Made by a program: the position numbers and the translations under genes. The notes under the pieces were generated by a model, which did not search any database, had not been told where the DNA came from, and was given only the letters and a program-made list of their open reading frames with translations. Source: Synechococcus sp. Nb3U1 (GTDB taxonomy: Bacteria > Cyanobacteriota > Cyanobacteriia > Thermostichales > Thermostichaceae). From it: DNA of 64,000 nt. How positions within the stretch are numbered: the first letter of the stretch is position 1; every line of letters starts with the position of its first letter. The stretch is taken from contig NZ_JAKFYQ010000002.1 in the NCBI RefSeq assembly GCF_021533835.1, forward strand, positions 310,001-374,000, given 5' to 3'. Positions 53,425 to 57,935 of this stretch are shown in pieces.

Positions 53425-53793
53425 TCACTCGGGATCCCTGGGCTGCACCTCCAGTAAATCCGCCTTTTGCAACAGCCGCTGGACTTCTGCCCGCAACTGC
53501 TTCCAACTACAGCTCAACAAACTGGCTTTGGGAATCAACAGCAGCCGGTATCCGGGTTTCAGGTTTGGGCACAGAGACCGTAAGATTTCCCGCAACTGGC
53601 GACGCAACCGATTTCGACGTACTGCCGATTGGCTCACTTTTTTGCTGATCACCAACCCCACCTGGCTGGGGAGCCCTGACTCTACTGGGCGAAACAGTAC
53701 CGTTAGACCCCCACTGGAGCGGCGCTGCCCCTCCTGATACAAAGCTTGAAAGGCTCGACGATCGCGCAATCGATGACGAGCAGGCAACATCAA
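53425..53793 (-). CDS. rnpA: ribonuclease P protein component
   Basis: 122 residues, basic. The RNR motif KKVSQSAVRRNRLRRQLRE near residues 50-68, the N-terminal LPARHRLRDRRAFQALYQEG and GLVISKKV are diagnostic. RnpA binds RNase P RNA and helps position pre-tRNA leaders. It follows rpmH by 79 bases on the same strand, the conserved bacterial rpmH-rnpA order beside dnaA. A second ATG one codon later (53790) could be used. Confidence 0.96.
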   Translation of the reverse strand: MMLPARHRLRDRRAFQALYQEGQRRSSGGLTVLFRPVESGLPSQVGLVISKKVSQSAVRRNRLRRQLREILRSLCPNLKPGYRLLLIPKASLLSCSWKQLRAEVQRLLQKADLLEVQPRDPE

Positions 53794-54071: not shown

Positions 54072-54314
54072 AATGTTGGTTGAATCTGTTGCATCCGTGT
54101 TGACGATGCTGACGAGACTAAAGCTCACCAACGCAAGCCAAAGTCCAGTCCACTTGCAGCTAGTCACGGATTTAGGATCGTAGCAGACTCACTTAGAAAT
54201 TGCTAGATTGGCCACCCTGCGCGAAGCAGCTAAATTGGGATATCCTGAGTCCCTGCCGAGGGATCCCAGTAGCGGATCCGCTGGGTCATTGACTTATCGC
54301 GTTGGGTGTGTTGC

Positions 54315-55742
54315 GTGGATATCTCCCTGGATCAACTCTGGGATGAGGCTTTGGGGCACTTGCAGGTGCAACTGAGCCGTCCAACCTTCGAGGCCTGGAT
54401 CAAAACGGCTCGGGCCGAATCTTTGGTGGATAACCGCCTCACCATCTGTACCCCCAGCGAATGGGCACGGGGCTGGCTGCAGAAACACTATGCCCCCACC
54501 ATCACCGAAGTGGTGCAACGGGTAGCAGGGATCCCGTTGCAGGTGGAGTTTTCCGTTTCTCCCCATGCCCTAGCCGCAGAAGAACCCCACTCAGCTGCCC
54601 TTTATGGGCCAGGTTCTGGCTCACTTTCCCCAACATCCCGCGATGGCAGCAGTTTGCCTGCTTCCGCCACCCTCGGACTGGAAGTGAATGGCGGCCTGCC
54701 AATGCGCGCGCCGGATCTCAACCCCAAGTACTCCTTTTCCCGCTTTGTGGTCGGCTCCAACAATCGCATGGCCCATGCCGCGGCCCTGGCGGTGGCGGAT
54801 AAGCCCGGGCGCGCCTACAACCCTCTTTTTCTCTGTGGTGGGGTCGGGCTGGGCAAAACCCACCTGATGCAGGCGATTGGCCACTACCAACTGGAGGCGG
54901 ATCGGCGGGCCAAAATTTTTTACGTGTCTACCGAGCGCTTCACCAACGATTTGATTGATGCGATCCGGCGGGACGGTATGCAATCATTTCGGGAGCATTA
55001 CCGGGATGTGGATGTCTTATTGGTAGATGATATCCAGTTCATCGAAGGTAAAGAATACACCCAGGAAGAGTTTTTTCATACTTTCAATACCCTGCATGAA
55101 TCCGGCAAACAAATCATCCTGGCCGCCGATCGCTCCCCCCATCTGATCCCCCGTCTTCAGGAACGGTTGTGTTCCCGCTTTTCCATGGGCTTGATCGCCG
55201 AGATTCAATCACCGGATATCGAAACCCGCATGGCTATTCTCAAGAAAAAAGCCGAGTACGAGGGGATGAACCTACCCGCCGGGGTGATCGAGTACATCGC
55301 CACCACCTACACCAACAACATTCGGGAGTTAGAAGGAGCTTTGATTCGAGCTGTGGCCTATGTCTCCATCTCCGGCCTGCCGATGAGTGTGGACACCATT
55401 CAGCCGATCCTCAACCCCCCCACCGAACCGAAAGAGATCACCGCCGACATTGTCATTGGCGTGGTTTGTGAAGAATTCGGCATCGACCGCGACAGTCTTC
55501 TCGGCTCCTCCCGCAAACGGGATATCAGCCAAGCACGGCAAGTAGCAATGTTTTTGATGCGCCACCACACCAACCTCAGTCTGCCCAAAATCGGGGATTA
55601 TTTTGGAGGAAAAGATCACACCACGGTTATCTATAGCTGCGAAAAGGTCACTCAGTTACAGCGGGAAAATCTGCAATTTGAGCGACAACTGCAAAACCTG
55701 GCGGAGCGACTACGGGTCACCGCCAACAACCGAGACACCTAA
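54315..55742 (+). CDS. dnaA: chromosomal replication initiator protein DnaA
   Basis: 475 residues from the GTG at 54315 ([13 protein letters not shown]); a GTG at 54306 would add three. Domain I covers about 1-80, and a variable Ser/Gly-rich linker about 85-130. The AAA+ domain has Walker [10 protein letters not shown] near 175-183 and Walker [13 protein letters not shown]. Domain IV ends with the DNA-binding signature [16 protein letters not shown] after [17 protein letters not shown]. DnaA-ATP opens oriC; the array of its binding sites lies just downstream at 56087-56433. Confidence 0.97.
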
Positions 55743-56086: not shown

Positions 56087-56480
56087 TGTGGAAAAACTGT
56101 GGAAAACCGCCATGGCCCGCCCAAGCCACGATGGAATGCCCAACCACATCTAGAGGGAGGATTCACCACATTAAGGGATCTCACACTGACTGTGTGTTAA
56201 GTTTTGTAACTTTGTCAGGAAATAGCAACATTTCTGCCCCATCAGCCTGTGGAAAACCTGTGGAAAACTCTAAAAACCTGTGGAAAACCTGTGGAAAAAC
56301 CCCCCAAGTTATTAACAGGTATAAATACTCTGTGGAAAACTTGGCTAGTTTTCCACATTTTTTCCACAGGTGGGGAATAGGGTCAAAAGGTTGTGGTACA
56401 AGGTGTTGGGGATCACTTTCCACAGTTTCCACAGCCCCTACTACTACTAGATCAAAATATTAGATAAAGCAGGGATCGAG
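56087..56480. other. chromosomal replication origin (oriC)
   Basis: Nine exact DnaA boxes TTTTCCACA lie between dnaA and dnaN. Seven are in TGTGGAAAA orientation at 56087, 56098, 56248, 56259, 56279, 56290 and 56331; two are in the opposite orientation at 56349 and 56360. Two one-mismatch boxes follow at 56416 and 56425. Most come in pairs exactly 11 bp apart. After the last box is GCCCC, then TACTACTACTA and an AT-rich run. This box-GC-trio order is the basal unwinding layout known from Bacillus subtilis. Location and composition make the origin call very strong. Confidence 0.93.
56439..56450. promoter_or_regulatory. DnaA-trio element beside the unwinding region
   Basis: TACTACTACTAG (three GAT trinucleotides when the lower strand is read 3'-5') follows the last DnaA box and a GCCCC spacer and is followed by ATCAAAATATTAGATAAAG, an AT-rich candidate unwinding element. 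In B. subtilis such trios guide DnaA onto single-stranded DNA. Confidence 0.7.
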
Positions 56481-56708: not shown

Positions 56709-57935
56709 ATGGCCCTGAACCTGACCTGCGAGCAAGCGGATCTCAGTCATCACCTCGCGTCAGTCGGTCGAGCCGTAGCCAGTCGTCCCACCCTGCCGAT
56801 TTTGGCCAATGTGTTGCTGGAGGCAGACGCGGAAACTCAACGGGTTGCCCTCACCGCCTTTGACCTGAACCTGGGTATTCGCAGCGAGTTTGACGCCCAG
56901 GTGGAGCATTCTGCCCGGACAACCTTGCCCGCCAAGCTCTTCAGCGATATTGTCAGTCGCCTACCCAGTGGCAAGATCACCTTGAGCCAGCCGCAAGAAG
57001 GTGCTCCCGTGACCCTGACTTCTGCTGCGGGTCAGTACCAGGTGCGAGGCTTATCGGCTGAGGACTACCCCACCTTGCCGGAAGTGGGCGCCGGTGATGG
57101 AGGTGAAGCGGCACAAGCTTTGGAACTGCACATTGAGAGCCTGCTGCAGGGGATCGGTCACACCCTCTTTGCTGCTTCTGGAGATGAAACCAAACAGGTG
57201 TTGACGGGGGTGCATGTCAAGCTGCTGGCTGGGGAGGGGGATCCGCCGTTGTTAGAGTTTGCCGCCACCGATGGGCATCGTCTGGCGACCGTGCAGACTG
57301 AGCTGATAACCTTCCCGGTTGTGCGCGGCACGAGCAGTGCCGGGATCCCGAGTGAATTGGCGGGGCAGGATCTGGGGGGAGTTAGGCTGGATTTCACCAT
57401 TCCTGCCCGCACCCTGCGGGAGTTGGAGCGGATTCTGAGTAACCAAGCTGCCGATACGGTGCAGTTGCGTTTTGATCGGGCACAGGTGCAATTCGGCCTC
57501 GAGCGCCATTTGATCACCAGCCGCCTTTTGGATGGCCAATACCCCGACTACAACCGTCTGATTCCCACCCAATTTGAGCGGCAAGTGACCCTAGAGCGGC
57601 GGCCTTTAATCGAATCCCTGGAGCGGGTTGGGGTGTTTGCCGCTCAAAAGAACGACATCATCAAGTTCAATCTTTCCTCAGCAACCCAAACCCTACAGAT
57701 CAGCACCGAAGCTCCCGATGTGGGCAGCGGCCAAGAATCTCTGCCGGTACAGATGTCTGGGCCGGATTTGGAGTTGGCCTTTAATGTGCGCTACTTGCTC
57801 GATGCCCTCAAGGTGTTTCATACCCAGCAGGTGAGCCTAGACCTTAACGGTGCCACACAACCCGCCATCTGGAAGCCCATCGGGGCAATGCGCTTGTGCT
57901 ATCTGGTCATGCCGGTGCAATTGCGAGCCACCTAG
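56709..57935 (+). CDS. dnaN: DNA polymerase III sliding clamp (beta subunit)
   Basis: 408 residues if started at the ATG at 56709 (MALNLTCEQADL), where the family homology begins. The frame stays open 48 codons further, to 56565, without recognisable sequence. Three clamp domains are present: ASRPTLPILANVLLEA near residue 25, FAATDGHRLATVQTE in the middle and PIGAMRLCYLVMPVQL at the end, the classical C terminus. DnaN is the processivity ring for replication. The end overlaps the convergent HD-like gene by four bases. Confidence 0.95.
   Translation: MALNLTCEQADLSHHLASVGRAVASRPTLPILANVLLEADAETQRVALTAFDLNLGIRSEFDAQVEHSARTTLPAKLFSDIVSRLPSGKITLSQPQEGAPVTLTSAAGQYQVRGLSAEDYPTLPEVGAGDGGEAAQALELHIESLLQGIGHTLFAASGDETKQVLTGVHVKLLAGEGDPPLLEFAATDGHRLATVQTELITFPVVRGTSSAGIPSELAGQDLGGVRLDFTIPARTLRELERILSNQAADTVQLRFDRAQVQFGLERHLITSRLLDGQYPDYNRLIPTQFERQVTLERRPLIESLERVGVFAAQKNDIIKFNLSSATQTLQISTEAPDVGSGQESLPVQMSGPDLELAFNVRYLLDALKVFHTQQVSLDLNGATQPAIWKPIGAMRLCYLVMPVQLRAT

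Follow-up and report, generated by a model that had tools for sequence, protein, structure and literature searches.

A conserved DnaA-trio block at the probable chromosome origin of a Thermostichus-like cyanobacterium

Introduction

Strand opening at DnaA-trios has been described for a cyanobacterium in Synechococcus elongatus: Pelliciari et al. 2021 reported that purified S. elongatus DnaA separates the strands of a scaffold carrying its own oriC in vitro, and that unwinding depends on DnaA boxes, trios, and the single-strand-binding residue of the protein (PMC8287927). In Bacillus subtilis, the boxes distal to the basal unwinding system (BUS) serve as a DnaA delivery region (PMC6669920). DoriC annotates trios (PMC6323995), and Ori-Finder predicted in 2008 a dnaN-linked oriC with TTTTCCACA-type boxes for Synechococcus JA-3-3Ab (PMC2275245). 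Dependence on DnaA varies within the cyanobacteria: the protein is dispensable in Synechocystis 6803, Nostoc 7120, and PCC 7002, several relatives have lost dnaA, and DnaA independence has several origins (PMC7198777).

Here we analyse the interval between dnaA and dnaN in a 64-kb stretch of DNA (hereafter, the window) from one member of this phylum. Judged from its sequence, the interval is very probably the oriC at which a Thermostichus-like cyanobacterium begins to copy its chromosome, with a BUS of the B. subtilis type as its opening device. The initial annotation had expected a clear cyanobacterial trio to extend that mechanism, a view outdated by the demonstration of the S. elongatus BUS in vitro in 2021 (PMC8287927); the window origin exemplifies, cleanly and with strong conservation, an already known device.

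A dense cluster of phased DnaA boxes separates dnaA from dnaN

The window encodes a 478-aa DnaA initiator (54306–55742, plus strand; phmmer match to B. subtilis DnaA 8btg, E 1.7e-127) and, further right on the same strand, the beta clamp gene dnaN (56709–57935; start fixed by homologues, with the ORF open from 56565). Divergent from dnaA on its left lie rpmH, encoding ribosomal protein L34 (53873–54013, minus strand, called as a reading frame), and rnpA, encoding the RNase P protein (53425–53793, minus strand), so that the classical, ancestral order rnpA-rpmH-dnaA-oriC-dnaN is present. An oriC is expected to place its DnaA boxes beside dnaA, dnaN, or both, and the window cluster lies between the two.

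Nine exact TTTTCCACA boxes, arranged as four 11-bp pairs and one single box, occupy this interval, all at the positions first assigned to them. Seven are on the minus strand: the pairs 56087–56106 (boxes at 56087 and 56098), 56248–56267 (56248 and 56259), and 56279–56298 (56279 and 56290), and the single box 56331–56339, which forms the left arm of an 11-bp inverted repeat. The remaining pair, 56349–56368 (56349 and 56360), is on the plus strand and faces dnaN, and the orientation switch originally placed at 56340 thus holds, the flip falling between 56339 and 56349. Outside this interval, the 3.49-Mb genome contains 51 exact copies, which corresponds to approximately 0.004 expected per 290 bp, and the chance of finding at least nine in 290 bp is P ~1e-27. 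The idea of an additional unwinding module to the left was rejected, as inspection by eye revealed no trios after the leftward-facing pairs at 56087 and 56248 or the single box at 56331. No Rfam family scored above threshold for a structured RNA in the region.

Elsewhere in the genome, some five DnaA boxes form another cluster at L020:1209-1305 (G000:C1:2150708-2150804), just downstream of a gene for a RibD-like reductase. Four of these boxes lie on the same strand, phased at 11 or 22 bp, trios are lacking, and the cluster is conserved in four or more of the genus genomes (congener loci L026, L027, and L025); it is a candidate DnaA-titration or reactivation site of the datA/DARS kind.

Tandem boxes lead into a genome-unique run of four DnaA-trios

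To the right of the exact boxes, two further boxes stand in tandem on the plus strand, 9 bp apart (56416–56433; class-wide consensus TTTTCCACAtTTTCCACAG): CTTTCCACA at 56416–56424 and GTTTCCACA at 56425–56433, each with one mismatch. They are followed by a 4-bp G+C-rich spacer, GCCC (56434–56437; the same length prevails among matches across the class), and by four DnaA-trios (56438–56449) that read CTACTACTACTA on the plus strand and 3'-GATGATGATGAT-5' on the minus strand. This 12-mer occurs once in the 3.49-Mb genome, and its reversed pattern has 0 and 2 occurrences. An AT-rich stretch of the predicted unwinding element (56450–56468) falls within the least stable 30-mer of the segment 54001–58500, namely 56439–56468, at -29.7 kcal/mol (segment mean -42.5, SD 3.1), consistent with the low duplex stability expected of an oriC.

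This anatomy agrees with every sequence feature that Pelliciari et al. 2021 set out for a BUS (PMC8287927). One or two boxes are expected no more than 16 bp from the first trio, and here the boxes at 56416 and 56425 precede it, the second by only 4 bp; at least three consecutive 3'-NAN-5' trios are expected, with GAT preferred beside the box, and here there are four of the form 3'-GAT-5'. The boxes should point toward the trios, which in turn should lie on whichever strand has 3'-5' polarity leading away from the boxes: both boxes read TTTCCACA on the plus strand, with the CTA trios of that strand directly 3' to them. The cognate DnaA, aligned to that of B. subtilis, carries the single-strand-binding (ISM) residue (Ile217, aligned with I190) and the arginine finger (Arg291, aligned with R264). 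The initial annotation had likened the order box, GC, trio, AT to that of the B. subtilis BUS, and the order and the AT run are real. Two of its details required correction: the boxes leading into the trios are the one-mismatch pair at 56416 and 56425 and not members of the exact nine, and the trio array is CTACTACTACTA at 56438–56449, with four full trios.

The mechanism predicted from this arrangement, from protein binding and the direction of oligomer growth to unwinding and origin activity, would proceed as follows. DnaA-ATP would fill the 11-bp-phased distal boxes, which would concentrate and deliver the protein; the tandem boxes at 56416–56433 would position DnaA, and the oligomer would extend rightward onto the minus-strand trios. 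By stretching that strand, it would melt 56438–56468 and allow helicase loading.

The unwinding block is invariant within the genus

To follow the locus among close relatives, we compared six genomes of the genus, including the window's own (G000). Five origins could be aligned, and they retain the pattern of boxes in neighbouring sequence that is variable. Both boxes of the 56248 and 56279 pairs are present in all five; the position of the 56087 pair is kept, with its second box often ATTTCCACA, and the first box of the 56349 pair is TTATCCACA in three congeners. The block ATCA(C/A)TTTCCACAGTTTCCACAGCCCCTACTACTACTAGAT is identical in the aligned origins apart from the bracketed base, and the sixth genome (G005, contig C76) has the same block, such that the string box-box-GCCC-CTACTACTACTA-GAT is identical in 6/6. 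Loss of the trio in close relatives, which the initial annotation had named as an outcome that would refute its proposal, is thus not what we find. Beyond the genus, the same block is present in a relative from the same family (G300) and in one from the same order (G269).

The setting of the block is more fluid than the block itself. Its left neighbour is dnaA in two genomes (G000 and G004), a RelA/SpoT-like gene in two (G002 and G003), and a Dus-like gene in one (G001); in the last three, dnaA is at a contig start or on another contig, apart from oriC-dnaN, which in two complete genomes among them sits at about 1.62–1.65 Mb. The unwinding block and dnaN therefore travel together, with linkage to dnaA dispensable. 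The three types of left neighbour within one genus mark the left edge of the origin as a rearrangement breakpoint.

Class-wide recurrence of the block and its near-constant spacer

At the scale of the class, the strict pattern TCCACAN{2,6}CTACTACTA is found in 157 of 388 genomes, compared with approximately 29 for the reversed control (counted by hand). Although five spacer lengths were allowed, the spacer is exactly 4 nt in approximately 137 of the 150 matches listed (hand count). When we instead scored the sequence upstream of dnaN for a BUS, 21 of 100 genomes passed on the coding strand, whereas the reverse strand gave no pass; inspection confirmed real trios in 19 of these and dismissed the other two, both from family f7. 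The consensus of 40 distinct trio-block instances is TTTTCCACAtTTTCCACAGcCcCTACTACTACTA. In 24 of these 40 (L021-L295), a GATC falls within approximately 20 nt past the first three trios, compared with 1.8 from shuffles, a figure to be read in light of the mutual relatedness of the instances and the GATC-rich window genome.

Within family f20, small genomes of Prochlorococcus size retain CTACTACTACTA even with degenerate boxes. Larger, marine-type f20 genomes (L110, L113, L115, L121, and L125) carry drifted arrays upstream of dnaN (CTACTACGACTG, CTACGACGACGG, and CTACGACTACGG), possibly deviant trios in which C replaces the middle A that is otherwise conserved on the trio strand. Drift of the boxes in G+C-rich cyanobacteria has been noted by DoriC (PMC6323995); we found no published description of trio drift.

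Trio loss may accompany independence from DnaA

A cluster of boxes alone is no proof of use, since some cyanobacteria with boxes at dnaN belong to DnaA-independent groups (PMC7198777). Where a genome carries four or more exact boxes upstream of dnaN, the canonical block is present in 14/16 cases outside families f6, f7, f11, and f28, and in 0/19 inside them (with the two f7 scores again set aside); f6 includes Microcystis, Synechocystis, Snowella, and the Epithemia/Rhopalodia endosymbionts, and f7 includes Dolichospermum and Anabaena. Canonical trios are thus absent from the sampled Nostocaceae, Microcystaceae, and allied families, including genomes that still have DnaA boxes, and we found no published account of this absence in those families. 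Model species of these groups can replicate independently of DnaA. The gene dnaA itself is absent from 8 of 80 genomes, none of which has the block. Across 79 named loci, for which the reverse-strand control score reached at most 7, there are eight trio positives, including Gloeocapsopsis, Trichocoleus, Microcoleus, Rhizonema, and Mastigocoleus, and the negatives include Nostoc, Anabaena, Calothrix, Fischerella, Microcystis, Crocosphaera, and Synechocystis. A blanket absence from the Nostocales was rejected, as Rhizonema (L258) and Mastigocoleus (L275) have a trio. In passing, two nearly complete f7 genomes of genus g15 (G051 and G231) give no DnaN match at E <= 0.001, whereas several others of that family carry two or three DnaN-like genes.

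Trio loss thus appears to match DnaA independence across lineages, a suggestive correspondence, and the comparison of approximately 390 genomes suggests that lineages able to live without DnaA lose the strand-opening signal and not only the protein. We tentatively propose, with slightly less than even confidence, that the trio may be a fingerprint of DnaA-oriC dependence, under near-absolute constraint where DnaA starts replication and eroded before the boxes where it does not. This is put forward as a hypothesis because the genomes are mutually related, with counts that ignore kinship, and because a few Nostocales retain a trio. Under this hypothesis, the present genus would be among the lineages in which the trio is constrained, even where dnaA has moved away.

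Alternative readings of the locus

An improbable alternative is that the origin is vestigial or optional, its boxes and trio merely inherited, with replication starting elsewhere or free of DnaA as in Synechocystis 6803 and Nostoc 7120. The repeated emergence of DnaA independence among cyanobacteria (PMC7198777) makes such a history conceivable, and the lack of a skew signal would fit it: in twenty 20-kb samples of the complete congener G002 we found no two-arm GC-skew pattern (permutation p = 0.42), and on the window contig (G000:C2) no skew change at the site (p = 0.49). As an origin locator, GC skew, a check proposed in the initial annotation, speaks neither for nor against the site, and JA-3-3Ab likewise has none according to the Ori-Finder authors (PMC2275245). 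Weighing against a vestigial origin, the block is invariant across the six genus genomes while its flanks diverge, and where DnaA independence is known or expected the trio is eroded or gone, as an unused origin should look, whereas here it is intact.

DnaA boxes upstream of dnaA or dnaN can regulate transcription, and the dnaN start follows the block at a distance of 260 bp; still, the idea that the boxes are a DnaA-responsive control of either gene, with the CTA repeat serving dnaN transcription rather than strand opening, is the least credible reading, given that one genome (G032) has the block 480 bp after dnaA with dnaN 3.08 Mb off, that family f19 has the strict pattern in 16 of 20 genomes (hand count) yet a trio upstream of dnaN in 0 of the 3 read, and that trio phase and a 4-nt spacer suit a BUS and not a promoter.

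An oriC opened by a BUS thus remains by far the most probable reading, because the trio block is identical in congeners and recurs class-wide with a near-fixed 4-nt spacer. The initial identification of the region as oriC is likewise favoured by a box cluster far above chance, a unique trio, and a block invariant among congeners.

A methylation switch formed by GATC sites next to the trio was also considered; six occur within 150 bp, but the whole window is GATC-rich (10 per kb), and the idea was set aside. The 64-kb window holds 638 GATC, 227 GGATCC, and only 3 GCGATCGC. A highly iterated palindrome of the GGGATCCC type is known genome-wide in Synechococcus JA-3-3Ab and JA-2-3B (PMC4390886).

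Comparison with known origins

Of the described systems, the B. subtilis BUS shares with the window its tandem boxes (the DnaA-box #6/#7 pair being the counterpart of 56416–56433), a short G+C-rich spacer, a run of 3'-GAT-5' trios, and AT-rich DNA; further boxes upstream, with dnaA before and dnaN after, are also common to both origins. The window differs in its box consensus (TTTTCCACA versus TTATCCACA), its four perfect trios, and its distal boxes, which are paired at 11 bp and switch orientation. With S. elongatus the window shares phylum, box consensus, and a position upstream of dnaN. Two f10 genomes (G041 and G263), which we take as S. elongatus-like, read TTTTCCACATTTTCCACAGCCC-CTATTACTACTG and CTACTACTACTG; in contrast, the window has four perfect CTA trios, and its dnaA adjoins oriC, whereas in the f10 genomes dnaA is not adjacent to dnaN. 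The predicted oriC of JA-3-3Ab is of the same genus type, being dnaN-linked, with TTTTCCACA boxes and no GC skew, and the GGGATCCC-rich genome style is common to the window and JA-3-3Ab-type strains (PMC4390886); dnaA is far from oriC in the JA-3-3Ab lineage and its neighbour in the window. A clean, conserved BUS in a deep-branching, thermophilic (hot-spring-type) cyanobacterial genus lends support to an ancestral origin of the trio mechanism.
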